Notes under the pieces: model-generated
Database searches by the model: none
What the model saw: only the letters and a program-made list of their open reading frames with translations
Told to the model about the DNA's origin: nothing
Part shown: positions 3,862-19,601 of the stretch, piece after piece
How positions within the stretch are numbered: position 1 is the stretch's first letter
Layout of the letters: each line of letters opens with the position of its first letter
From: a virus
Virus record (IMG/VR): IMGVR_UViG_3300015264_000054
Coordinates: 1 to 22,136 of that record
Direction: 5' to 3' (one strand)
Length of the DNA stretch: 22,136 nucleotides
Made by a program: the position numbers and the translations under genes

Positions 3862-4170
3862 ATGCGGGTCACCATCATTGTTGATGACAGTCATGTTTAT
3901 GTTGAGGAACAAGCACTCAAGGTTGATTTAACTGGACTCGACGAGGATATTCATGCTGTGCAATGGTATGGTACTGTTGGAGAAATTGAATATCGGCATG
4001 ATCATATTGAAAATGTGCGTAAGGCAAATGAGCAGTTTATAGATTTTGCTCCATTTCAAGTTTTTGTTGATCGTTGGATGGTTGAAGCGCAAAAACCTGA
4101 TCCAGTTCCTGTAACACCAACTACGGCAGAATTCCCAGTTAGTATAGGCCCGATGCATGTCATTGCTTAG
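3862..4170 (+). CDS. Unknown phage protein between tail fibre genes
   Basis: 102 residues, start supported by an AAAGGA about 8 nt upstream. The sequence is acidic and aromatic, with a predicted beta-rich N-terminal half (MRVTIIVDDSHVYVEE, then DEDIHAVQWYGTVGEIEY) and a helical segment (KANEQFIDFAPFQVFVDRWMVEAQK), ending in a Pro/Thr-rich tail. Similar short proteins with an HAVQWYG-type core follow fibre genes in other phages as I recall, and a tail-fibre assembly chaperone or decoration role would fit, but nothing here proves it. It has no signal peptide, membrane helix or Cys. It overlaps the next gene by 14 nt if that gene starts at 4157. Confidence 0.7.
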   Translation: MRVTIIVDDSHVYVEEQALKVDLTGLDEDIHAVQWYGTVGEIEYRHDHIENVRKANEQFIDFAPFQVFVDRWMVEAQKPDPVPVTPTTAEFPVSIGPMHVIA

Positions 4171-4429
4171 TATGCCACTTAATACAGGAATTTTAAGGGG
4201 GGTTATCTATACCTTTGAAAAAGTTGGTGATACTCTTCCAATGCATCGACATACTGAGGCTGATGTACATATTACTATTGTTGCTCGTGGAAGTTTTCGC
4301 ATACATGGTTCTGAAATTGGTAACAAAGAATATCATGAAGGTGCTGTGATTGATTGGTCACCTGATGTTGATCATGAATTTATCGCCCTGACTGATAATG
4401 CACGTGTCGTTAACATTATAAAGAATTGA
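4157..4429 (+). CDS. Small single-domain cupin protein
   Basis: 90 residues forming essentially one cupin beta-barrel. The first cupin motif is visible as GDTLPMHRHTEAD (His-X-His plus the following Glu) leading to a conserved-looking Gly in ARGSFRIHG; the second motif is represented by PDVDHEFIAL with its single His. These residues normally form a metal site, so the fold is convincing, while the substrate is not predictable: cupins include isomerases, dioxygenases and non-catalytic binders. The start is ambiguous: ATG 4157 overlaps the previous gene by 14 nt and has a weak AGG 8 nt upstream, whereas in-frame ATG 4172 lies just past the previous stop. It lies within the tail fibre block, so a host-range or fibre-associated role is possible but unproven. 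Confidence 0.75.
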   Translation: MSLLSMPLNTGILRGVIYTFEKVGDTLPMHRHTEADVHITIVARGSFRIHGSEIGNKEYHEGAVIDWSPDVDHEFIALTDNARVVNIIKN

Positions 4430-4431
4430 AC

Positions 4432-4758
4432 ATGGTAAAGATACCACATGCAGACGAAGGTTCTATCTGTCCTTTGCATCAAAAGGATACAGCTACTGTT
4501 TGTCATTTATGTCCTTGGTGGACACGTGTGCTTGGAAAAAATCCGCAATCTGAAGAAATGATTGATGATTGGCGTTGTGCAGTTGCGTTACTTCCAATGC
4601 TTTTAATTGAGAATGCGCAACAAGGCCGTCAGACGGGTGCTGCTGTTGAAACATTGCGTAATGAATTGGTTGCTGGTGTTGTAGAAGCAGTTGGTCATGC
4701 TGCTAGAAATGTTGGAAATACTTCAACACGTCTATTAAATCCAAATCGTCATTATTAA
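4432..4758 (+). CDS. Cys-motif phage protein in the tail fibre block
   Basis: About 108 residues from ATG 4432; a TTG six bases upstream is also in frame. The N-terminal third carries ICPLHQKD, then CHLCPWWTRVLGKNP and WRCAVALLP, giving five Cys and nearby His spaced like a small zinc- or iron-binding module. The rest is helical (LLIENAQQGRQTGAAVETLRNELVAGV). Proteins with this CHxCPWW...CA(V/I)ALLPMLLIENA layout are, from memory, recurrent in rhizobial-type phages and unassigned. It starts 2 nt after the cupin stop, and the next fibre gene follows at 4769, so all three are probably co-translated. No function is claimed. Confidence 0.7.
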   Translation: MVKIPHADEGSICPLHQKDTATVCHLCPWWTRVLGKNPQSEEMIDDWRCAVALLPMLLIENAQQGRQTGAAVETLRNELVAGVVEAVGHAARNVGNTSTRLLNPNRHY

Positions 4759-4768
4759 GGAAGATACT

Positions 4769-5653
4769 ATGCCCCGTAATGGATCAGGGTCATACAGCCT
4801 CCCACAGGCAGCATTTGTGGCTGGTACGACTATTTCCTCTGCGTCAATGAATAGTGATCTCAGTGATATAGCCTCTGCTTTGACTGGCTCGCTTCCCCGT
4901 GATGGGCAAGCAGGTATGACAGGTCAGCTTAAGATTCCTGACGGGAGTTCCATTGCCCCAGCATTATCATTTAGTAATGAGCCTAATACTGGATTTACAA
5001 GGCCTAATGTTAATCAAATAGGTGTCGTAATTGGTGGTGTACAAGTTGGAACATTTTCCACAACAGGAATACAAGGGGGCGTGCCTATTGGAACTATTGT
5101 TAGTTTTGCTGGGGCTACAGCACCAACTGGATGGTTGCTTTGTTTTGGTCAAGCCATAAGTCGGGCTTCTAATGCTGCATTATTTACCGTGTTAGGAATA
5201 ACTTGGGGTTCTGGTGATGGTTCCACTACATTTAATATACCAGATTGTCGTGATTATGCTCTCGTTGGCAAAGGCGATATGGGTGGGTCTGATGCGGGGC
5301 GTTTGACTACTGCCTTTTATGGAACAAGTCCTACAGTTCTTGGAAACGTAGGTGGTGTGCAAAGTAAGGCATTGGTTACAGGAAATTTACCTCCTATAAC
5401 TCCTACAGGTACAGTTGGAATAACTGATCCGGGGCATAGTCATACTTCTCCTCAACAAACTTGTGCATCTTTTGTTAACGTTGGTTCTGGTCCCGGTGGG
5501 GGATTGCAAACTGCAGTTTCTATTACCATTAATTCGAATACTACTGGTATAACAGCTTCGTTTACTGGTACTGGAGGGGGAGGATCAAGTACAGCATTTG
5601 GACTTGTTCAACCTTCAATTATTGTTAATAAGATTATTTATACTGGAGGTTAA
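4769..5653 (+). CDS. Tail fibre protein with phage tail collar domain
   Basis: 294 residues with an AAGGAAG ribosome binding site. Residues 1-95 are a clear paralogue of the fibre gene at 3049 (shared MPRNG-G-Y--PQ start, VAGT-ISSA, RDGQ, PDGS--APALSF-NE-NTG). From about residue 103 the tail collar domain is visible: VPIGTIVSFAGATAPTGWLLC, then SNAALFTVLGITWGSGDGSTTFNIPDCRDYALVGKGDMGG, the signature of Tail_Collar proteins of T4 gp12 type. The C-terminal part has GHSHT and Gly/Ser-rich repeats ending in IIVNKIIYTGG, normal for a trimeric fibre tip. Role: receptor binding or fibre tip at the distal tail. Its stop overlaps the next fibre-like gene by 1 nt when ATG 5653 is used. Confidence 0.88.
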   Translation: MPRNGSGSYSLPQAAFVAGTTISSASMNSDLSDIASALTGSLPRDGQAGMTGQLKIPDGSSIAPALSFSNEPNTGFTRPNVNQIGVVIGGVQVGTFSTTGIQGGVPIGTIVSFAGATAPTGWLLCFGQAISRASNAALFTVLGITWGSGDGSTTFNIPDCRDYALVGKGDMGGSDAGRLTTAFYGTSPTVLGNVGGVQSKALVTGNLPPITPTGTVGITDPGHSHTSPQQTCASFVNVGSGPGGGLQTAVSITINSNTTGITASFTGTGGGGSSTAFGLVQPSIIVNKIIYTGG

Positions 5654-5655
5654 TG

Positions 5656-6285
5656 ATGTCTTTTAATAGCACAGGAATTTATACGCCTGCTGCTGGTGCA
5701 CTTACGGCGGCACCGGGAGGCATCATTAAATCTTCAGTGTGGAATGCTATCTTCACTGATATGACGGCTGCGTTCACACAAGTTGCACAATCAAGGTTCT
5801 TGCTAAATACTTTAACGGCTGCTGCTTCTGCTACATTGGGGGATACCACTAGTTTAACTTCTACTTTTAAAGATTATGAAATTGTCTTTGAAAATTTAGT
5901 ACCGGGAACCACTACCGTTACACTTGAGTTTCAAGTTCATTCCGGTGGTTCATTTCAAGCTACCAGCTATCTCAGCAGTACTTTTGGTACAAATGGCACT
6001 GCCACCATTCTTGCAAATGCGGCTACAACATTTATCCCTTTAACACATACTACTGTTACTACTGGAAATAATGGAGTATCAGGAACAATAAGGATATATG
6101 GACCTGTAAATGGAGCTACTTTAGCAAAAAGTGTAACGGGAAATACAACAGCATCTAATGGTGCTGTTTTGGCTACTGTAGTCGCTGGTTTTTGGAACAA
6201 CACTGCAGCACTAGATGGTTTTCAAATTCTTTTCTCATCTGGAAATATTGCAAGTGGAACAGTTAAAATTTATGGATTATTGTGA
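5656..6285 (+). CDS. Fibre-like distal tail protein, beta-rich
   Basis: 209 residues from ATG 5656. A GGAGGT (5645-5650) lies 5 nt before this ATG and only 2 nt before the in-frame ATG at 5653, so 5656 is preferred. The N-terminus (FNSTGIYTPAAGALTAAPGGIIKSS with VWNAIFTDM) resembles an anchoring segment of phage fibre proteins. The remainder is Thr/Gly/Asn-rich and alternates hydrophobic and polar residues as in beta-sandwich or jelly-roll carbohydrate-binding tips, ending DGFQILFSSGNIASGTVKIYGLL. No Cys and no membrane segment. It follows the collar fibre directly and precedes the endolysin with a TGATG overlap. A receptor-binding or tail-tip role is an inference from position and composition. 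Confidence 0.72.
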   Translation: MSFNSTGIYTPAAGALTAAPGGIIKSSVWNAIFTDMTAAFTQVAQSRFLLNTLTAAASATLGDTTSLTSTFKDYEIVFENLVPGTTTVTLEFQVHSGGSFQATSYLSSTFGTNGTATILANAATTFIPLTHTTVTTGNNGVSGTIRIYGPVNGATLAKSVTGNTTASNGAVLATVVAGFWNNTAALDGFQILFSSGNIASGTVKIYGLL

Positions 6286-6839
6286 TGAAAGAGAATAGAG
6301 TAATTACCCTTACTTCTATCCTTCGATGGGAAGGTAGTGACTTAAATACAGCACCGTCTGAACCCGGTGGTGCCAGTAAGTTTGGAGTGTCAGTTGATTT
6401 TTTGACTGATTATCACAAGAAGCATGGATGGCCCCGTGCCACAATCCACGATGTGTCAGTTTTAACCAATGACGACGCTATGTTGATTTATAATGAAATG
6501 CTTCTTGATCCCCTGCAATTTGATGATTTGCCTAGTGGGGTCGATTTCAGACTAGCTGATTTGACTACGAATTTAGGCATGACAGGTGGTCCAAACCTAC
6601 TTCAGCTTTGCTTGGGAATGTATCCTTTGACAGGGAAGATAGACAAACAGACCATAGATCTTGTAAAATCAATTGATCCAAAGACTTTGGTTATCGCACT
6701 GAGTGCAGCGTGGATAGCCGTCAAGCATCAGAGCCCCAATTGGGGGCCAAATCCTCCTACTACTAAAACTGGTTTTGGCCATGGTTGGTCTAACAGGAAC
6801 AATGCACAAAGGGATGATGCATTAGGGCTTATTAAATAG
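6285..6839 (+). CDS. Endolysin, GH108 N-acetylmuramidase
   Basis: 184 residues from ATG 6285 (TGATG overlap with the previous stop; an in-frame GTG lies 3 nt earlier). The N-terminal half matches glycoside hydrolase family 108: SILRWEGSDLNTAPSEPGG followed by ASKFGVS, where the Glu of the WEG motif (residue 16) corresponds to the catalytic Glu of the family's EGG motif. The second Gly of EGG is replaced by Ser here. The C-terminal half (TGKIDKQTIDLVKSIDP ... SAAWIAVKHQSPNW ... GFGHGWSNRN) fits the peptidoglycan-binding domain usually fused to GH108, with the normal GWxNR ending. It cleaves the murein glycan backbone. There is no signal peptide, so release presumably depends on a holin. It is paired with an amidase endolysin next door. 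Confidence 0.88.
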   Translation: MKENRVITLTSILRWEGSDLNTAPSEPGGASKFGVSVDFLTDYHKKHGWPRATIHDVSVLTNDDAMLIYNEMLLDPLQFDDLPSGVDFRLADLTTNLGMTGGPNLLQLCLGMYPLTGKIDKQTIDLVKSIDPKTLVIALSAAWIAVKHQSPNWGPNPPTTKTGFGHGWSNRNNAQRDDALGLIK

Positions 6840-6848
6840 GAGAGTAAC

Positions 6849-7418
6849 ATGACCTTCAGCCTACTCTGGTTGCCTAATGTTCTAAGGGCTTGGGGTCTAA
6901 CCGTCACTGAAGTACCCGGTTGGCAAAACAGAGGCCATGGTGATGAAGGTCAAGTTCTTGGTGTCCTTTGTCATCACACATGCGGGCCTCTTCACGGTGA
7001 CCTTCCCGATCTTAATGTGCTCGTTGATGGTAGGCCTGATCTTGGCGGCCCGCTTTGTAATTTGGGGCTGGGTCGTTCTGGTCATTATTGGATGATAGCA
7101 GCTGGAAAAGGTTGGCATGCTGGTGCCGGTATGTGGCAAGGAATCAAGGACGGTAATGCTCACTTTATTGGTATTGAAGCTGAGAATACTGGAGAGACGA
7201 AAGGCCCCCGAGCTGAGGCTTGGCCTGCTATTCAGATGGATGCTTATAAGCGGGGTTGTGCAGCCATCCTGACACATATCGGTGCTTCAGCTATTATGTG
7301 TGCGGGGCATAAGGAATATGCTCTGCCTCATGGACGTAAGGACGATCCAGACTTTGATATGATCAAGTTCCGTGAAGATGTCAGGAAACTTATGGCTTCG
7401 TCACCGTTGATATCATGA
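6849..7418 (+). CDS. Endolysin, zinc N-acetylmuramoyl-L-alanine amidase
   Basis: 189 residues with AGGAGAG before the ATG. This is an Amidase_2 (PGRP/T7-lysozyme type) domain: the strand VLGVLCHHTCG carries the first zinc His (H42/H43), FIGIEAENTG is the conserved mid-domain strand, and GHKEYALPHGRKDDPDF supplies the second zinc His (H154) and the third ligand (D166 in the K-x-D-P motif). It cuts the amide between muramic acid and the stem peptide. No export signal or separate cell-wall-binding domain is visible. Two endolysins of different bond specificity stand side by side here; together they would degrade both glycan and peptide links. Its last codons overlap the next gene by 4 nt (ATGA). 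Confidence 0.88.
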   Translation: MTFSLLWLPNVLRAWGLTVTEVPGWQNRGHGDEGQVLGVLCHHTCGPLHGDLPDLNVLVDGRPDLGGPLCNLGLGRSGHYWMIAAGKGWHAGAGMWQGIKDGNAHFIGIEAENTGETKGPRAEAWPAIQMDAYKRGCAAILTHIGASAIMCAGHKEYALPHGRKDDPDFDMIKFREDVRKLMASSPLIS

Positions 7419-7852
7419 TCGAAACTGTCATAGTGCCTCCTACGCCATACCCCACAGGTTTTTTGTGGTGGTTTCGCAATGGTGATAGTTGGCATGCTCC
7501 GGAGGAAAACAATGGGTTACCTTATCTTCCTGATATAAAGAATCAAGTTTTAAGAGATTTTCTATGGTTTTGCCGCAATCCTATTGGCAATTTCATGGGC
7601 TTTGTTATTGGATTTGAAGGCATGGGCTTTGTGGTTACTGGGGAAGCCCCAGTTATGATGACTACTGGGCGTGATGCTATTCCCCAAATACTAGGCTGGC
7701 GTTCGTGTGTTATTAATGGTTGGGCTCATTATGTTAGTTTTTGGGGTCCAGTATGGTATTTGCCCAAGAACTATAAGGTAGAATTTTATTTTGGTTGGCG
7801 TCCGGCCAGTGGCGGGTTCGGCTTGAAGTTCATCCCTACAACAAGGAGCTAA
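7415..7852 (+). CDS. Unknown phage protein, aromatic-rich
   Basis: 145 residues, start in an ATGA overlap with the amidase. The sequence is unusually rich in Trp, Phe and Gly. The central RDFLWFCRNPIGNFMGFVIGF and the end YFGWRPASGGFGLKF recall a family of small phage proteins with an RNPxxNF motif and a terminal Gly/Arg/Trp element (DUF7338-like, from memory). The central stretch is hydrophobic and could be membrane-associated, but no clean 20-residue helix is present. It stands between the endolysins and two small membrane proteins, so a lysis-related or envelope-related task is possible. Not identified further. Confidence 0.65.
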   Translation: MIETVIVPPTPYPTGFLWWFRNGDSWHAPEENNGLPYLPDIKNQVLRDFLWFCRNPIGNFMGFVIGFEGMGFVVTGEAPVMMTTGRDAIPQILGWRSCVINGWAHYVSFWGPVWYLPKNYKVEFYFGWRPASGGFGLKFIPTTRS

Positions 7853-7854
7853 AA

Positions 7855-8178
7855 ATGTTCGCGTTAATCCTTGGTGGCCCAATTGATGCGATAGCTGGTG
7901 CATTGGCGTTGGGTGTTATGTTTGTCACAATCTGTGTTTTTGTGGTTGCCTACATCAATAAGCGTCGTTCGCGACAGGAAATTGACAATGATTTTCAATT
8001 GGCAAAAATCAAACAACACGATTACACTGTTTCGCTTGACAAGAAAACACAATTTGATCATGAGGAAGCTTTGTTAAGACTCGATGCTAATAAGCAAATT
8101 GAATTTCGCAAAATTGAGACTGGATTGATCGAAGGCAAAGTTAATAAGCCAACTGACTATGACAATGGGAGAAATTAA
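7855..8178 (+). CDS. Small bitopic membrane protein with charged tail (possible inner-membrane spanin)
   Basis: 107 residues. ATG 7855 is chosen because AAGGAG (7843-7848) lies 6 nt upstream; the frame is open 60 nt further but those codons overlap the previous gene. One N-terminal hydrophobic helix (about residues 10-34, IAGALALGVMFVTICVFVVAYI) is followed by NKRRSR and then a long charged, helix-forming tail rich in Lys, Glu, Asp and Gln. A single N-terminal anchor with a charged helical tail next to endolysins resembles i-spanins, but the positive charges just after the helix would by the positive-inside rule favour a cytoplasmic tail, which argues against that. An XhlA-type or other lysis accessory is the alternative. 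Confidence 0.65.
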   Translation: MFALILGGPIDAIAGALALGVMFVTICVFVVAYINKRRSRQEIDNDFQLAKIKQHDYTVSLDKKTQFDHEEALLRLDANKQIEFRKIETGLIEGKVNKPTDYDNGRN

Positions 8179-8179
8179 A

Positions 8180-8473
8180 ATGAGTACAACCCCCACAGGC
8201 GCACAACCGACGATTGTTGCACAAGTTGACGTGCAATCCGCGTGGATAAGCAAGATAAATTGGACGCAGGCAATAGGTATTGTTGCTACTATTCTTGCAG
8301 TTGTTTCTAGTAATAAATATGAAATCCCGGCTGAAACACAGATTTCAATTGTTGCTGGCATCCAAGGCGTGCAGGCTGTTGTCACTTGGGTTATCAAGAC
8401 ATGGTTTACCAAGACCATTACCCCAGCATCTGCTGCTGCACCTGATGTTCCGACTAAGGTAATTGTGAAGTGA
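8180..8473 (+). CDS. Holin-like small membrane protein
   Basis: 97 residues. ATG 8180 is preferred over ATG 8159 because GGGAG lies about 8 nt upstream and the former overlaps the preceding gene only by the alternative start. Two hydrophobic segments, about residues 30-45 (WTQAIGIVATILAVVSS) and 55-75 (ISIVAGIQGVQAVVTWVI), are separated by the short polar NKYEIPAETQ, with hydrophilic Thr/Ala/Pro-rich ends. This two-helix hairpin of under 100 residues, directly downstream of endolysins, fits a class II holin, though the hydrophobic segments are modest. Small phage proteins with the same NKY-IPAETQ turn are usually left unassigned. Its stop overlaps the protease start as GTGA. Confidence 0.6.
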   Translation: MSTTPTGAQPTIVAQVDVQSAWISKINWTQAIGIVATILAVVSSNKYEIPAETQISIVAGIQGVQAVVTWVIKTWFTKTITPASAAAPDVPTKVIVK

Positions 8474-9267
8474 GAAAATATAAATTCAACTTACGAAGAA
8501 ATACAGCGTTGACAGGAGATCGTTTCCTGCCAACGCATTTAGGTTTTTCTGATGCTCGTCCTCCAATGGTTGATTTGCGACCCATGCTTCCACCTGCATT
8601 TGATCAAGGTGAAGAGGGTTCTTGTGGGCCTAACAGTGCTGCTGCTTTTATGCGTTTTCTCTATCCTGAAGTAGTTGATGGCTTCAGCCGTCAACAGATT
8701 TACTACAGTGTCCGTGTACTTGAACATGATGTAAGTGAGGATGCGGGTGTTGAGACTAGGGACTTGTTTGCTATCTTGCGGGATGTTGGGGCAGCTCCTG
8801 AAAGTCTTTGGGGATACACGCCGTCAAACTTCAAGTTAGTTCCTACACCGGAAGTTTTATTGGCAGCAGGAAACTATAAGATAGGTTCATATAGTCAGCT
8901 TACGGCGGAAGTAGACTTCTTAGATTGCTTAGCTGAGGGCTTTCCATTCATCCTTGGATTTGAATGTTATGAATCCATAAATGGTAAGGCTTTAGAAAAA
9001 ACTGGTGTGATGCCCCGTCCTGATGTTCGTAAAGAAGAGGACCTTGGTGGTCATGACGTGTTGGTTGTTGGGTATGATACCAATTTTTTAAAGAATGCTG
9101 ACTTTTTAAAATCAGGCATTACCCCTTCAAAGGTGAATAATACAGCACTTTTGATTAGAAATTCTTGGGGAGAAGATTGGGGTTTAAAAGGGCATTTCTG
9201 GATGCCTATTGATTTCGGGGCTAGCCCATTGACCGGGGGCGACGCATGGTCAGGCCGTTTAGTTTAA
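8470..9267 (+). CDS. Papain-family (C1A) cysteine protease
   Basis: 265 residues from a GTG overlapping the preceding stop by 4 nt. The C1 peptidase catalytic set is complete: Q46 (oxyanion) and C52 in FDQGEEGSCGPNSAAAF, H195 in GGHDVLVVGYD, and N231 in LIRNSWGEDWG, in the right order and spacing for a mature papain domain. There is no signal peptide and no inhibitory propeptide: the domain starts about residue 30 (VDLRPMLPPAFDQG), after a short basic N-terminus. It is inserted between a holin-like gene and a lipoprotein, so it may act at lysis (degrading membrane or periplasmic proteins), in virion maturation, or against host proteins; the sequence does not decide. The active site looks intact, so it is unlikely to be a pseudoenzyme. 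Confidence 0.88.
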   Translation: MRKYKFNLRRNTALTGDRFLPTHLGFSDARPPMVDLRPMLPPAFDQGEEGSCGPNSAAAFMRFLYPEVVDGFSRQQIYYSVRVLEHDVSEDAGVETRDLFAILRDVGAAPESLWGYTPSNFKLVPTPEVLLAAGNYKIGSYSQLTAEVDFLDCLAEGFPFILGFECYESINGKALEKTGVMPRPDVRKEEDLGGHDVLVVGYDTNFLKNADFLKSGITPSKVNNTALLIRNSWGEDWGLKGHFWMPIDFGASPLTGGDAWSGRLV

Positions 9268-9279
9268 CAGGAGAGTAAC

Positions 9280-9660
9280 ATGGCTAGGAATTACATTGCA
9301 CTTGCCCTTGCTACAACGCTTGTCAGCGTGAGTCTCGGGGGTTGTGCTACGGACCCAACTACAGGGGCAACTACAATTGATGTTGCTCAAATAACTTCTA
9401 TTGAGGCTGAAGTTCAAAAGAATGCTGCTATCATTTGTGGGTTTGTTCCTACAATTGGCACAGTAGCTTCTGTTATTGCATCACTTGTTGGCGGAAGTGC
9501 AGTGACAACTCTTGCCACTCAAGCCGCAAATGCAATTTGTGGAGCTGTAACCCCTGCAAAGGCACAAGCAATGCGTATGGGTACCCGTCGTTTAGTTGTG
9601 CGAAGGGGTACGGCACCAACTGTTAATGGCATTCCTGTTGAAGGTTACTTCATCAGGTAA
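9280..9660 (+). CDS. Phage lipoprotein (possible o-spanin or surface lipoprotein)
   Basis: 126 residues with AGGAGAG upstream of the ATG. The N-terminus is a lipoprotein signal: hydrophobic ALALATTLVSVSL then the lipobox LGGC (Cys22) followed by ATDPTTGATT. Asp at position +3 rather than +2 does not favour inner-membrane retention, so outer-membrane sorting is likely. The mature part has a second hydrophobic Ala/Val/Gly-rich segment between two Cys (CGFVPTIGTVASVIASLVGG ... NAICGA) and ends in a basic patch and a short beta-like tail (RRGTAPTVNGIPVEGYFIR). From memory, closely similar lipoproteins are common in rhizobial phages. It could be the outer partner of a spanin pair or a superinfection-exclusion lipoprotein; neither is proven. 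Confidence 0.78.
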   Translation: MARNYIALALATTLVSVSLGGCATDPTTGATTIDVAQITSIEAEVQKNAAIICGFVPTIGTVASVIASLVGGSAVTTLATQAANAICGAVTPAKAQAMRMGTRRLVVRRGTAPTVNGIPVEGYFIR

Positions 9661-9685
9661 TTATTGAAGATGGGGGTATTAATAA

Positions 9686-9994
9686 ATGGTGTCTCCAGAT
9701 TCAGACAATGGGAATAACGGGGATAATGGAGAAATTGAACCCCGATCACAAGCTATGTCGCTTGATAGCCGTGTCATACTATTGTCTGAACGTATCAGAA
9801 ATCTGACTAGAGAGGTTAGACAGCTTAAATCAATGTTATCTTCTGATAAGAAGGAACTTGTCTTACGACTTGGTAAATTAGAAGTGACATATCAGCGGGT
9901 ATTTGGAATTATCTTAGTGTTTCCAATTCTTGGTGCCGTGCTTGGTTTTATAGCGACTTATTGGTCATCGTTGTTCAAGCCATTGGTAAGGTGA
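9686..9994 (+). CDS. Coiled-coil protein with C-terminal membrane anchor (XhlA-like layout)
   Basis: 102 residues. The N-terminus is acidic and Asn/Gly-rich, followed by a heptad-like helix (about residues 24-68, with ILLSERIRNLTREVRQLKSM and LVLRLGKLEVTYQRV) and one hydrophobic helix (about 73-92, GIILVFPILGAVLGFIATYW) just before a short basic C-terminus. Coiled coil plus C-terminal anchor is the layout of XhlA-type holin partners, though no specific residues identify the family. It lies between a lipoprotein and another membrane protein, and its stop TGA overlaps the AAGGTGAG ribosome binding site of the next gene. Confidence 0.65.
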   Translation: MVSPDSDNGNNGDNGEIEPRSQAMSLDSRVILLSERIRNLTREVRQLKSMLSSDKKELVLRLGKLEVTYQRVFGIILVFPILGAVLGFIATYWSSLFKPLVR

Positions 9995-9998
9995 GTCT

Positions 9999-10442
9999 AT
10001 GCTCAAATTGCAGTGGTGGCATATAATTGGCATTGGCATGATGTTTCTAACAGCAAGCCTTGTCTTTATGTGGTTTGATACAACACTACCTTATGAGTTT
10101 GATGCCTCACAAAGCAAGATAACCCTGTCGCCCGCTGAGGGTGGTGGTATGCAGATTAGTGTTGAATGGAAGGCTAAAGTTAATAGGGTGTGTCCCGGTA
10201 CCAAAACGCGTGAACTATTTGATCCCACGATAAGGCCGCCAGTACGACTTGCGATTTATGATCCTGAGTCGACTGAAGATCGTCAAGTTAGGACCTTTAA
10301 ATTACCACGTAGGATTTCAGCAGGGCTAATTGGTTACCGGGCGCATTTGTCTTATAAATGTAATTGGTTACAGCGATTTTTCCCACTTGAATATGATACT
10401 CCTGATTTATTCTTTGAACTACCTAATCATACCGATAATTGA
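9999..10442 (+). CDS. Bitopic membrane protein with periplasmic beta-domain
   Basis: 147 residues with AAGGTGAG before the ATG. A single N-terminal hydrophobic helix (about residues 8-25, IIGIGMMFLTASLVFMWF) is followed by a beta-rich, presumably periplasmic domain with two Cys (VNRVCPGTKTRE and LSYKCNWLQRFFP) positioned to form a disulphide. The end (YDTPDLFFELPN) is typical of a small immunoglobulin-like or jelly-roll domain. Similar N-anchored phage proteins with a late YRA...Y-CN-LQ--FP element recur next to lysis genes, from memory. The function is unknown; an envelope-directed task is all that can be said. Confidence 0.68.
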   Translation: MLKLQWWHIIGIGMMFLTASLVFMWFDTTLPYEFDASQSKITLSPAEGGGMQISVEWKAKVNRVCPGTKTRELFDPTIRPPVRLAIYDPESTEDRQVRTFKLPRRISAGLIGYRAHLSYKCNWLQRFFPLEYDTPDLFFELPNHTDN

Positions 10443-10505
10443 GGGTTGTATTGCTTAATCATCACTGATATCTTCTAATAAACAGAAAAATGGTAAGGGT
10501 TTGAA

Positions 10506-10913
10506 ATGGATATAAATCTTTATCACTACTTCCCATCGGAGTCCGAGATCCTGAACCGATTGGATTATATTGCACAAAAATTGGATCTCATACTCAGAGT
10601 TGAACGACGAACGGAGAATGAAATGCAACTCGATTTTACTAAAATAGTTGCGGCAGCTGCCGCACAAGCGACTGTAACAAATAGTGTGCTGCAAACTTTA
10701 CAAGACCTTGGTGCAAAGGTTGCGGATATTTCAGCACAGCTTGCAGCAGCGATTGCAGCAAATGATCCGGTTGCACAACAGGCTGCACAGGATCAACTTG
10801 ATGCATTGGCTCAGGGTATTAGTGACAACGACGATAAGTTGGCGGCAGCCATTATTACCCCCGGACCAGCACCAGCTCCTACGCCAGCACCTACGCCTAT
10901 TCCTACAGTGTAA
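10506..10913 (+). CDS. Coiled-coil protein with Pro-rich C-terminus
   Basis: 135 residues. The start ATG 10506 has a weak TAAGGG upstream. Residues 1-50 contain aromatic and charged residues (INLYHYFPSESEILNRLDYI, LILRVERRTENEM). Residues 44-118 form a long Ala/Gln/Asp-rich helix with heptad character, and the last 20 residues are a Pro-Ala-Thr repeat (PGPAPAPTPAPTPIPTV). This architecture (short head, coiled coil, Pro-rich tail) is common among small phage proteins whose role is unassigned; oligomerising linker or virion accessory are possibilities. No membrane segment or signal peptide, in contrast to its neighbours on both sides. Confidence 0.65.
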   Translation: MDINLYHYFPSESEILNRLDYIAQKLDLILRVERRTENEMQLDFTKIVAAAAAQATVTNSVLQTLQDLGAKVADISAQLAAAIAANDPVAQQAAQDQLDALAQGISDNDDKLAAAIITPGPAPAPTPAPTPIPTV

Positions 10914-11576: not shown

Positions 11577-13424
11577 ATGATACGTTTTATCTTTAGTTTG
11601 TTGTTGTTAATGTGTTGTGAGACAATAGCCAAAGCGCAAACTTGTGGCATGCAATTGGGTGGTACAGCTATCTTTTGTGAAACTTTTGACAATAAAAATC
11701 CTGGCATCCAAAGTCGCACCGGTGATCTTGATCCAAATGTTTGGGGGGTATCACGTGCTGGTCTGGTTAATCTCGGTCAAGGCTTTTATAATGAGTGGTC
11801 GGTGGCTACTACGCTTCAGAGTTGCAATGGGCCAATTACTGTTACAGCACCCACTCATGATATAATGATTTGTAATGGTCAGCTTCGTGAAGCAACTAAT
11901 GATAACCCAACTGGCCAGTTTGATGCTGGTGACGTATCTACATTAGCAATGTATCCAAAACAGCCATTTGATTTTGTTGGAAGAACTGGTACTGTATCTT
12001 TTGATGTCAGCAATGACTCGTTTGGGACACATTCAGCATGGCCAGAATTTTGGCTAACTAACCTTCCTGTTCCAACTCCATTCAATCATTTTGACTCATG
12101 GCAATCCCTTCCACAACATGGCTTGGGGGTACGTTTTGCAAATGCAGTCGTTGCAGGTCAATGGGGTCTCTGCCCGAATGGTAACAATTTAGATAAGCCA
12201 CGTTGGACTGTTGATTCCGCTGTTGCTGTTCGAAATTACATTATGGATGATACGATTGGGTTGGGGGGTGTTCGAACTAATATGGCACTTCAGATACTTG
12301 ATTGTGTTATTGCATCACCAAATAATTCAGGGGTTATGAATCATATAGAACTTAAGATCTCTCAAAATCAAATTGATGTTTATGCCACTGATGCGGGTGT
12401 TGCTCCATCTCCGGCAACTCTCAGGAAGATAGCTGTTGTTACCAATGCGAACCTGTCATTTTCACGTGGATTGATTTGGCTTGAAGACGTTCACTATAAT
12501 GCGGATAAAGGTGGGGCACCATCACAGAGGCAGCACACATTTGTTTGGGACAACATAGCTTTTGATGGGCCATTCACCTATCGGGATTTCAGCTATGATG
12601 CTTTGGATGTCAATCAACCTGATGGAACTTCTAATGCAGTTAGTCTAGGTAAAGTATCTTTTCCTAATCAAACTACAAGCTGGAATGTCCTCAATCTACC
12701 AGCCAATCGTCAGGCAGAGGTTGTGCGTGTCCTATTCAATTTTTTCGAATACACTCCAGTTGCGACAGTCCTTAACGTGACAGTTAATGGCCACGCACAT
12801 TCAGTTCCTTGGCCATACCCTGATTCGCAAGGGTTTACGTGGAAAACCTTTGCCGTGACCGTTCCCATCACGGATCTTGTGACTGGTACCAATGTTGTAC
12901 AGCTTGGGTCAGACCAATCTATGGTGACTTCCAATGTCAACATCGTGCTCGTGAACGTCCCGGGTGGCATGCCAATCTTGCCCGGATCAAATAATGTGTA
13001 TCCTATTGGTGCAACGACACCACCTCCGCAACCAGTTAACGGTGCGTGTGGTTCAGCTAATGGCACCACTCTAGCATCTGCCCCTTCAACTAATCTTTGC
13101 TTAGCAGGCACTTCATCTCCAGTAATGGGTACTGGGCCATGGACGTGGAGCTGCAATGGTTCAAATGGTGGTAGCAATGCAAATTGCTTGGCTCAAAAAA
13201 CTGTTGTACCGCCTACAGTAGTTAATGGTGTTTGTGGATCGGCAAACGGTGTTGCTGTAACTTCTGTTCCAACTAGCAATCTTTGCTCTACTGGTAGCGT
13301 GATAGGCCCATGGAAATGGAGTGGTGGAAGTTTAAATGGAGTTGCGGACGGCCCGTGGTCATGGAGCTGTACTGGATCATCTAATGGTGGTATTACTGTA
13401 AATTGTTCTGCATCTCATAAATAA
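11577..13424 (+). CDS. Secreted lectin-like protein with two Cys-rich C-terminal repeats
   Basis: 615 residues. A Sec signal peptide is clear: MIR, hydrophobic FIFSLLLLMCC, cleavage probably after AKA at about residue 20. Residues about 25-335 resemble a concanavalin-A/glucanase-like beta-sandwich (IFCETFD start, WGVSRAG, AMYPKQPFDFVGRTGTVSFDV, WPEFWLTN); I see no family-16-type catalytic E-x-D-x-x-E. About 340-475 is a second beta-domain. Two modules at about 487-548 and 549-615 share VNGxCGSANG, LC, GPWxWSC and a final Cys, like the Cys-paired repeats at the ends of bacterial surface proteins; module 2 has an extra internal GPW-W copy. It is probably displayed outside the cell or in the periplasm; carbohydrate binding is inferred. 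It contains the only CCWGG found in the phage DNA (11700-11704). Confidence 0.75.
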   Translation: MIRFIFSLLLLMCCETIAKAQTCGMQLGGTAIFCETFDNKNPGIQSRTGDLDPNVWGVSRAGLVNLGQGFYNEWSVATTLQSCNGPITVTAPTHDIMICNGQLREATNDNPTGQFDAGDVSTLAMYPKQPFDFVGRTGTVSFDVSNDSFGTHSAWPEFWLTNLPVPTPFNHFDSWQSLPQHGLGVRFANAVVAGQWGLCPNGNNLDKPRWTVDSAVAVRNYIMDDTIGLGGVRTNMALQILDCVIASPNNSGVMNHIELKISQNQIDVYATDAGVAPSPATLRKIAVVTNANLSFSRGLIWLEDVHYNADKGGAPSQRQHTFVWDNIAFDGPFTYRDFSYDALDVNQPDGTSNAVSLGKVSFPNQTTSWNVLNLPANRQAEVVRVLFNFFEYTPVATVLNVTVNGHAHSVPWPYPDSQGFTWKTFAVTVPITDLVTGTNVVQLGSDQSMVTSNVNIVLVNVPGGMPILPGSNNVYPIGATTPPPQPVNGACGSANGTTLASAPSTNLCLAGTSSPVMGTGPWTWSCNGSNGGSNANCLAQKTVVPPTVVNGVCGSANGVAVTSVPTSNLCSTGSVIGPWKWSGGSLNGVADGPWSWSCTGSSNGGITVNCSASHK

Positions 13425-13822: not shown

Positions 13823-14353
13823 TTAATCTGTAGGATAATGCTTACGAGCGAGAAGTGTGTGTTCCAAACAATAGGGGGTGCGCTCACTGTCACTGACACG
13901 TCGTGCACCACAGAATCTGAAGTCTGATCGACGTGGATCGCCTTTCGGCCATCGGCAATGATGCCATTCAAGTTCCTGAAGGGTCACTTCAGTTGTATCA
14001 TTATCAATCATTCGTAATCTAACTCTCGTTTTAATAAGAGGTGATGTGATTGCGGGCATTTCACCTATTCTAGGTGATTGTTGAAAACCCTGCCTTGACT
14101 TACTGGGAGTCTCAACGGTTTTAACCCTACCCTTTGGGGGTTCACCACGTCTAGGTTTTAAATTGTCTTCGCTTAGCACTTTGCGTAAACGGGATATTCG
14201 TCCTGCGATAGAATTTCGAGACCGTTTTAGTTGATTAGCTATATCACCCATGGAATGGCCTTCCTTGAAGAGTTCAACAATTTTTTGATCATCTTCAGAT
14301 GTGAATGGAGATATCATCTGTTTATTGATTGTCAATGGTGATTGCTGATCCAT
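13823..14353 (-). CDS. gcrA: GcrA-family cell-cycle transcription regulator
   Basis: 176 residues; AGGA lies 5 nt before ATG 14353. Residues about 14-58 form the GcrA-type helix-turn-helix (FTSEDDQKIVELFKEGHSMG followed by DIANQLKRSRNSIAGRISRLRK), including the NxIxGxxxRL pattern that in GcrA reads W/S..NAVIGKVHRLGL. A Pro/Arg-rich linker follows. Residues 123-176 carry the family's C-terminal element: LQELEWHHCRWPKGDP, then FCGARR and YCLEH, with three Cys and a His. GcrA of Caulobacter works with sigma-70 at promoters methylated by CcrM (GANTC). A phage copy could redirect host cell-cycle promoters or drive phage promoters; I infer this. It is last in the leftward operon and overlaps the gp46-like gene by 32 nt. 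The residue replacing the first-helix Trp of host GcrA is Phe. Confidence 0.86.
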   Translation of the reverse strand: MDQQSPLTINKQMISPFTSEDDQKIVELFKEGHSMGDIANQLKRSRNSIAGRISRLRKVLSEDNLKPRRGEPPKGRVKTVETPSKSRQGFQQSPRIGEMPAITSPLIKTRVRLRMIDNDTTEVTLQELEWHHCRWPKGDPRRSDFRFCGARRVSDSERTPYCLEHTLLARKHYPTD

Positions 14354-18103: not shown

Positions 18104-18616
18104 TCATACGAATGGCTTGCACACTTTGATGAACTTTGGCATGTCAAGGATGTACAAATCATGCGGAGTGCTGATTAGGGTCGTTCTAATGTCATGCAAA
18201 CCTAGTTTGCGCATACCAGCTTTATCAAGGCATACGTGAGGATGCATGCGGTTTTGACGAGCCACTAAAAATGGAAGTTTACCGTACCGCCAAGCTTGCT
18301 CATTTATTTCAGACCAAAAAGCAAGTAGCTTGCCTTTCCCAGTAAGTAAGCCTTCATAGTCAAGTTTAGCATAAAATTTAACTTCGACAGCAAAGGTATT
18401 GATGAAGCGGTTGCCCATTGGATGGATACAAGATAGGTCTCCGACTTGTGTACTTAAACTTCGTCCTTTGGCATGTGCTATTGTTGCACGTCCCCCTGAA
18501 AGTGCGCTTCGCCAAAATACATCTTCTCTAGTTCCACTGGTCACCCATTTGGAGAGCAGGACACAAACTTCACGTTCAAAGGAAGCCCCTTTGCTTTTTC
18601 CACCACCCGGTTTCAT
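18104..18616 (-). CDS. PD-(D/E)XK nuclease, probable Holliday-junction resolvase-like
   Basis: 170 residues, start in an ATGA overlap with the methyltransferase stop and no Shine-Dalgarno of its own, so it depends on coupling. Catalytic pattern: E14/E16 in the first helix (KGASFEREVCVLLSKW), D60 in TQVGDLSCIHP, and E78-x-K80 in FAVEVKFY, the E...GD...ExK core of PD-(D/E)XK nucleases. The length and N-terminal helix fit archaeal-type Holliday-junction resolvases and phage equivalents; a Cas4-like or VRR-type nuclease is less likely since no Cys cluster is seen. Situated between RecA-like and gp46/47-like genes, branch resolution is the sensible role. Confidence 0.8.
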   Translation of the reverse strand: MKPGGGKSKGASFEREVCVLLSKWVTSGTREDVFWRSALSGGRATIAHAKGRSLSTQVGDLSCIHPMGNRFINTFAVEVKFYAKLDYEGLLTGKGKLLAFWSEINEQAWRYGKLPFLVARQNRMHPHVCLDKAGMRKLGLHDIRTTLISTPHDLYILDMPKFIKVCKPFV

Positions 18617-19374
18617 ACACGGTCTAATCTAGAACTAACATAAGCTACAAGATGTTTTTCTGTGTCAGGTACGCTGACTACATTTCCACCTAGTAAAAAA
18701 TGTTCAAAATCAAACAAGAAGGATTTTATTACTTCTTTACCGCAATGAATCCACTCAGTGATTACTACTGGTTTTAATTTTTCAATAGAAGCTTGTGCCC
18801 CTCTGAGTACATCCATTTCCATGCCTTCAACGTCTATTTTTAAAATGTCAATTCGTGATAATTTGGAATCATCTAAAGCAAAACAACTTACAATATCCAT
18901 GTCGTGCTTGTCATAGGATAGCTCTTGACCGGGGCCATGAACTAGTAGACCGTCACGCATGGCAATTCCACCAAAATTGGAAAGGACTTCATAGTTTATT
19001 CTAGGGACACACATAGTTCCTGATACATTGGAAATAGCTCCGTGAACTGCTTTGACATTCATGCAATTATTTAATGCAACATTTCCTGCCAATGCGTAAT
19101 AGATGCGTTCTTGTGGCTCAAAAGCTGTGATATGCCCCCATCCCTTGCAGTGTTTCGCCCATGGTATGGTGCAGGTACCTACGTTGGCCCCAACGTCAAT
19201 AATGTGGACTTTTTCGCCATAGAGAATGCTGCATTGTGCACTTAGGTCAGTATCAAGGGACACAACTTCATGTTCATGAGTTCCAAGCATGAGTAGTTGC
19301 CAACTGACACCTGTATCCATCCTGCTGATAATCATGGGGCCGTAAGCGGTAGAGGCTAGGATAAAAGGTGTCAT
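18613..19374 (-). CDS. FkbM-family SAM-dependent methyltransferase
   Basis: 253 residues from ATG 19374, which overlaps the previous stop as ATGA; an in-frame GTG 27 nt upstream is less likely. SAM motif I is VHIIDVGANVGTCTIPW (D60-VGANVG), followed by ITAFEPQERI (85-FEP) and NVKAVHGAIS; the FkbM signature IDILKIDVEGMEMDVLRGA is present. FkbM enzymes methylate hydroxyl groups of sugars, polyketides or glycopeptides. In a phage the target might be modified DNA sugars, host surface glycans or a protein; nothing nearby decides. It is one of two genes in this leftward operon with no obvious recombination role, and a simple acquisition from a host is likely. Confidence 0.87.
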   Translation of the reverse strand: MTPFILASTAYGPMIISRMDTGVSWQLLMLGTHEHEVVSLDTDLSAQCSILYGEKVHIIDVGANVGTCTIPWAKHCKGWGHITAFEPQERIYYALAGNVALNNCMNVKAVHGAISNVSGTMCVPRINYEVLSNFGGIAMRDGLLVHGPGQELSYDKHDMDIVSCFALDDSKLSRIDILKIDVEGMEMDVLRGAQASIEKLKPVVITEWIHCGKEVIKSFLFDFEHFLLGGNVVSVPDTEKHLVAYVSSRLDRV

Positions 19375-19601
19375 AGATCGGGGGCTTTCTTGACCGGCCA
19401 CTTTTTAGCTAGTTCAATATGGTCAGTAGTTGCCTCAATAATGCGTGGGTCACCCATGTCGGTTCGAACTAATTTTCTGTAATGTTGCAATATTTTGATA
19501 AAGTGTTTGTCCTGCGCTCGAAACAAAAACACTGGTTCATCATCTGGGATAAGTCCGGCTGGATCTTGAATGCGGTCATAATCTTTGCGTGCGTGTTTCA
19601 T
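19371..19601 (-). CDS. Small phage protein next to the RecA-like gene
   Basis: 76 residues with ATGA overlaps at both ends (with the RecA-like stop and with the methyltransferase start). The N-terminus MKHARKDYDRIQDP followed by DEPVFLFRAQD is characteristic of a small family found in many rhizobial-type phages, which I recall as unassigned. The second half is helical (FIKILQHYRKLVRTDMGDP, HIELAKKWPVKKAPDL). Highly charged, soluble and without Cys. Linkage to the recombinase may indicate a replication-accessory role. Confidence 0.75.
   Translation of the reverse strand: MKHARKDYDRIQDPAGLIPDDEPVFLFRAQDKHFIKILQHYRKLVRTDMGDPRIIEATTDHIELAKKWPVKKAPDL

Follow-up and report, generated by a model that had tools for sequence, protein, structure and literature searches.

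A xylellain-type papain-family peptidase gene next to the holin-like gene of a phage lysis cassette, a candidate auxiliary lysis enzyme

The DNA analysed here (the window) is a linear virus record of 22,136 bases, perhaps a fragment, which contains tail-fibre and collar genes and a lysis region, the tail-fibre genes lying upstream of the lysis cassette. Genes for SbcC, an SbcD-like protein, RecA/UvsX and GcrA map to the opposite strand. The GcrA homologue (13823-14353, minus strand) was recognised with PF07750 (profile E 6e-25); GcrA is a family of alphaproteobacterial cell-cycle regulators. A Hyphomicrobiales host is likely, because the amidase of the window is 74% identical to that of the Bradyrhizobium prophage ppBdUSDA122-1 and because a GcrA gene is present, and the host is probably a soil bacterium akin to Bradyrhizobium. 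An FkbM-type methyltransferase gene (18613-19401, minus strand; PF05050, E 6e-17) was found amid the phage recombination genes. Positions 11577-13424 encode a protein of 615 residues that apparently has a signal peptide and shows near-repeats (NG.CGSANG...GPW.W.C.GSNGG...NC) in its C-terminal part; it had no match in Pfam or PHROG and retains 71% identity in the related phage locus L086.

The lysis region comprises the following genes:

6282-6839, plus strand: GH108-type endolysin (muramidase); Pfam Glyco_hydro_108, E 1e-10; phrog_315 endolysin, E 2e-13
6849-7418, plus strand: Amidase_2 endolysin; Pfam PF01510, E 8e-14; phrog_880 endolysin, E 3e-40
7415-7852, plus strand: DUF7338-like protein; Pfam PF24027, E 3e-5, below the cut-off; 68% in L086
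7855-8178, plus strand: small protein with an N-terminal transmembrane (TM) segment followed by KRRSR and a charged helix, from hydropathy and sequence
8159-8473, plus strand: holin-like small protein with two weakly hydrophobic stretches; 80% homologue at the same place in L086
8470-9267, plus strand: C1A papain-family cysteine peptidase of the xylellain type, 265 residues, GTG start; Q46, C52, H195, N231
9280-9660, plus strand: lipoprotein, here named lipoB; lipobox LGGC, conserved CGFVPT, an IC Cys pair and C-terminal NG.P.EGYF
9686-9994, plus strand: coiled-coil protein with one C-terminal TM segment (72-90); weak phrog_1296 holin match, E 0.027
9999-10442, plus strand: protein with an N-terminal TM segment; homologue near a distant lysis-located papain gene in L070, E 1.6e-7

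The peptidase gene is thus placed between the holin-like gene, whose stop overlaps its start by four nucleotides (GTGA), and the lipoprotein gene, as the preliminary description had it. The product of 8159-8473 is called holin-like from its position and hydropathy; it had no family match, and its hydrophobic stretches fall below the TM threshold used. LipoB had no match in Pfam or PHROG, though a lipobox is present. No Rz-like spanin pair was recognised in the window, where small coiled-coil TM proteins near the peptidase gene could possibly have spanin-like roles. The protein encoded at 7855-8178 looks N-out/C-in by its predicted topology, hence not a classical i-spanin, and the product of 9686-9994 is a possible lysis accessory.

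The peptidase matched Pfam Peptidase_C1 (PF00112; E 5.1e-7, 30.4 bits, curated cut-off 20.7) and, in PHROGs, phrog_16701 'peptidase' (E 2.8e-9). Its closest solved relative is xylellain (3ois), aligned over residues 28-261 with a sequence E-value of 1.8e-26. An AlphaFold2 model built from 34 phage homologues had a mean pLDDT of 91.9 and a pTM of 0.92, and its best fold matches in the PDB were both 3ois chains (E 6e-23, TM 0.80), followed by cathepsins. The complete Q-C-H-N active site proposed from the DNA alone, with the cysteine at position 52, was borne out by the alignment, in which Q46, C52, H195 and N231 are invariant across the 34 phage relatives, and the comparison of the predicted structure with C1 peptidases returned a papain fold. 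In the papains of the window's clade, an insert of ~20 residues separates the GYD and NSWG motifs.

The N-terminus (VRKYKFNLRRNTALTGD) is hydrophilic, and a hydropathy and sequence check of 8470-9267 detected neither a signal peptide, a lipobox nor a TM segment. Only ~30 residues precede the mature-like domain and PF00112 was the sole Pfam match, so that there is no long I29-type propeptide; the protein is therefore without signal peptide or long propeptide, in line with the original description. The N-terminal TM segment and the lipoprotein signal that characterise spanins are likewise missing from it. A chance open reading frame is ruled out because an intact, 75%-identical homologue with a dN/dS of 0.11 is present in L086. 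In this comparison of the window with L086, dN/dS was 0.114 for the papain gene, a sign of purifying selection, and similar for the amidase gene (0.076) and the holin-like gene (0.150). Judged by sequence and model, 8470-9267 encodes a xylellain-type C1A papain-family peptidase, which is predicted to be catalytically active.

One explanation for such an enzyme in a lysis cassette is a further peptidoglycan hydrolase, which would cut peptide stems or cross-links alongside the GH108 enzyme and the amidase. Mycobacteriophage LysA does contain papain-superfamily C39-like 'N5' domains (PMC3314691), phage MMB025 has a C1 domain in fusion with a lysin, and the BFVD structure matches of our model include phage proteins annotated as N-acetylmuramidase and peptidoglycan-binding. 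However, no muralytic or wall-binding domain was found in the window protein, in which Pfam and PHROGs recognised only Peptidase_C1 and phrog_16701, and both sequence and fold group it with the C1A protein endopeptidases (xylellain and the cathepsins) and not with NlpC/P60, CHAP or C39 enzymes. The phage is also already equipped with an amidase and a GH108 enzyme. Muralytic activity of the papain is thus quite unlikely.

The gene order around the peptidase was compared among its viral relatives. A scan of viral data with the single papain protein sequence returned no relatives, and alignment-based searches were needed; 134 relatives of the gene were counted in IMG/VR. Four of them (L086, L110, L111 and L112/L102) are 52-75% identical to the window protein, and the window, L086, L110, L111 and L112 form one clade with 100/100 support in the tree. 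All five clade members keep the order endolysin, holin-like gene, papain, lipoB, while the endolysin itself varies (GH108 plus amidase, amidase, GH19-like, peptidoglycan-binding enzyme or amidase-SH3). Coupling between the holin-like and papain genes is tight: the two overlap by 4 nt in the window and by 8 nt in both L110 and L112, abut in L086 and are 9 nt apart in L111. In L086 the order is amidase, DUF7338, holin-like gene, papain (75%) and lipoprotein (75%); no homologue of the GH108 endolysin was found there, and the amidase, holin-like, papain and lipoB genes are all kept. In L111 a glycosyltransferase gene and a phosphoesterase-like gene lie between the peptidoglycan-binding enzyme and the holin-like gene. 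A frameshift at some point from 4526 to 4592 breaks up the papain gene of L112/L102 (3984-4779); it could be a sequencing error or decay. Scans of a collection of genome contigs with close-clade papain patterns and lipoB patterns found no relatives, bacterial or prophage; xylellain-type genes are present on bacterial plasmids.

This arrangement bears on the possibility that the papain is a virion component, such as a tail-borne one, that would cleave surface proteins during entry. A papain domain fused to tail-fibre and collagen-like sequence in L032 and the tail-fibre genes upstream of the cassette in the window would fit such a role. Nevertheless, Pfam detected neither a tail-binding nor a fibre domain in the window protein, the papain and fibre genes are separated by the two endolysin genes and the holin-like gene, and the clade keeps the papain adjoining the holin and lipoB genes, all of which make a virion-borne enzyme highly improbable in this phage.

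The linkage to lipoB extends beyond the clade. As an independent test, a search of viral contigs with lipoB alone recovered the known members and one new phage, L119. Its lipoB (3965-4318) overlaps by 1 nt the start of a C1 papain gene at 4318-5079 (profile E 5.9e-81), and lipoB is preceded by a membrane protein of the L112 type (phrog_17576 in both). L081, found via its papain, contains a papain, a holin-like protein of 71 residues and lipoB (E 2e-11), in that order. Together with the order kept throughout the clade, these two linkages answer the earlier call for a search of the same neighbourhood in related phages. The papains of L119, L081, L070 and L113 are far from the window clade on the tree, and in L070 and L113 a GH19-like or M15 endolysin is close to the papain gene. 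The starred branches of the papain tree force at least five changes of the lysis-setting label, a descriptive count with labels hand-picked from the examined loci.

Two further loci, L087 and L103, were found via the amidase and contain lipoB and no C1 papain. Their slot between the endolysin/holin region and lipoB is occupied by a protein of 251-252 residues (55% identical between the two), which in L087 (7133-7891) matches phrog_19005, of unknown function in PHROGs. Comparison of this protein with the C1 family by hhalign gave a probability of 93% (E 2.9e-7), with the Cys and His regions aligned, and the expected catalytic Asn was not evident in the aligned TWG motif. The AlphaFold2 model of L087:7133-7891 from a single sequence reached a pLDDT of only 32, so that the papain fold of the slot protein rests on profile comparison, from which a papain-like function is probable. 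A relative annotated 'cysteine protease and beta' directly follows an amidase in the myovirus ctsHD2. The phrog_19005-type loci L087:7133-7891, L103:11094-11849 and L115:6923-7654 look like a remote papain-fold family in lysis regions.

Other phages with amidase homologues carry a different module in the slot. At 13 loci (about 11 distinct) it is filled by a lipoprotein (lipoA) followed by a small helical protein (helB), with no protease; these loci (L088, L089, L091-L098, L100, L105 and L108) have the pair downstream of the amidase, after the holin. Conversely, the amidase-homologue loci with lipoB have a protease and lack lipoA and helB, and no locus has both modules. This alternation of lipoB/protease with lipoA/helB suggests that the modules do related work. 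The lipoA/helB pair had no match in PHROG and is a possible unrecognised spanin-like pair of Bradyrhizobium-type phages. In L101 the slot instead has two small overlapping genes, and the lipoprotein encoded there shows weak similarity to an Rz-like spanin (phrog_1275, E 0.015).

Nine loci had suggested the rule that lipoB always occurs with a protease, but three phage records contradict it: Mesorhizobium phage vB_MseS-P1 and the Synechococcus phages Ssp-JY39 and Yong-M2-251 have endolysin-lipoB-holin cassettes without a protease. LipoB therefore does not require the protease; it is a lipoprotein of lysis cassettes with a papain-fold gene next to it in many cases but not in all.

A general association of the phage C1 family with lysis was considered and rejected. 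A recognised lysin was found within 3 kb in about 7 of 72 representatives, which might be near chance expectation, and the neighbours across the broad family are mostly head, terminase, portal, tail-fibre and other late genes. The family is therefore versatile, and the lysis reading holds for the clade of the window and for a small number of other lineages. Several members illustrate other arrangements. The endolysin of Alicyclobacillus phage MMB025 (L004:8001-10262) has an N-terminal C1 papain domain followed by Ig-like, Rv2525c GH-like and PG_binding_1 domains. In L032 (4738-6438) the C1 papain domain is fused to tail-fibre/collagen-like repeats, which suggests virion-borne papains in other phages. 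One phage contig, L015, has two different C1 papain genes in tandem (8964-9782 and 9872-10675), and gp163 of FLC9 is a solitary gene in opposite orientation to those around it.

Given this versatility of the family, action in the cytoplasm has to be weighed for the window enzyme as well, whether in host takeover, anti-defence or phage-protein maturation, the gene being in the lysis region only as a late accessory. Morons also accumulate around lysis cassettes; the wider C1 family lies amid diverse late genes, as morons often do, FLC9 gp163 is solitary and oppositely oriented, and the window protein has no export signal. Against this, the holin-papain-lipoB order is retained in all five clade members despite endolysin swaps, distant C1 papains and the remote homologue share the setting, and the slot alternates with another lipoprotein module. 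A cytoplasmic function is regarded as unlikely. The preliminary description had offered three roles, namely cleavage of cytoplasmic host proteins, anti-defence, and holin-mediated release followed by digestion of periplasmic or outer-membrane proteins at lysis. Comparative evidence best supports the last, and no support was found for the first two.

We therefore favour, with a probability of roughly one half, the reading that the papain peptidase is an active auxiliary lysis enzyme, released by the holin, that cuts envelope proteins, which would be an unusual role. Among the roles considered it is the best supported by gene comparisons, namely the conserved slot, the coupling to the holin-like gene, the repeated linkage to lipoB and the alternation with lipoA/helB; the counter-evidence is that lipoB cassettes without a protease exist and that the wider C1 family is not lysis-specific. 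The C1 domain at the N-terminus of the MMB025 endolysin and the N-acetylmuramidase and peptidoglycan-binding annotations among the structure matches also speak for this reading. Canonical endolysins are without signal peptide and await the holin in the cytoplasm, and both endolysins of the cassette and the papain protein alike have no signal peptide. Late in infection the peptidase would be made in the cytoplasm, presumably in co-translation with the holin-like gene, and, lacking an export signal, it would stay there in the fashion of canonical endolysins. Once the holin opened the inner membrane, it would reach the periplasm alongside the muralytic enzymes and there cut envelope proteins, helping to clear away the outer-membrane barrier, with lipoB acting together with it or beside it in outer-membrane removal.

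The most attractive substrates would be the beta-barrel outer-membrane proteins that are covalently bound to peptidoglycan in Hyphomicrobiales. In Rhizobiales the N-termini of outer-membrane proteins are covalently tied to peptidoglycan and Lpp is absent (PMC10787603), and for these reasons a lysis protease in Hyphomicrobiales would be biologically sensible. Any phage of a Gram-negative host has to break through the outer membrane, and in about 13% of the phages surveyed, Rhizobium phage 16-3 being one of them, no spanin was recognised (PMC6139136). A bolder proposal, which we consider rather unlikely, is that in some Hyphomicrobiales phages the holin-released papain and lipoB replace spanins by cutting peptidoglycan-anchored outer-membrane proteins. 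If this were true, papain plus lipoB would be a further route for opening the outer membrane besides spanins and disruptins, and papain-fold enzymes would have been recruited to it several times.

The presence of the C1A family in phages (PMC10380794) and of papain-superfamily domains in endolysins (PMC3314691) is already known. In the open-access literature we found no description of a lysis-cassette gene for a stand-alone C1A peptidase, nor of the module suggested by the recurrent pairing of papain-fold enzymes with a single lipoprotein family. Among known lysis systems, spanins (Rz/Rz1, u-spanin; PMC6139136) would share with the window papain the outer-membrane step and the lipoprotein partner gene, a hypothetical likeness; the papain is a soluble protease without i-spanin topology or spanin family match. 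A second hypothetical likeness is to mycobacteriophage LysB (PMC5707550), a mycolyl-arabinogalactan esterase that is likewise an extra cassette enzyme directed at a host-specific outer layer; LysB is an esterase whereas the window papain is a protease, and no sequence relation is claimed. The endolysins with papain-superfamily domains (the C39-like N5 of LysA, PMC3314691; the C1 of MMB025) have such a domain inside a lysis enzyme, while the C1A peptidase of the window stands alone, with neither a peptidoglycan-binding domain nor a second catalytic one attached to it. The closest known group is that of the xylellain-type short bacterial C1A peptidases (3ois; MEROPS C1A, PF00112), genes of which are reported to have been acquired by Myoviridae and Siphoviridae (PMC10380794). 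The window papain shares with them the fold, a full-length alignment, the Q-C-H-N residues and a short N-terminal segment in place of an I29 propeptide, but it is only about 30% identical to xylellain, has the ~20-residue insert, and is set in a phage lysis cassette with coupling to a holin-like gene.
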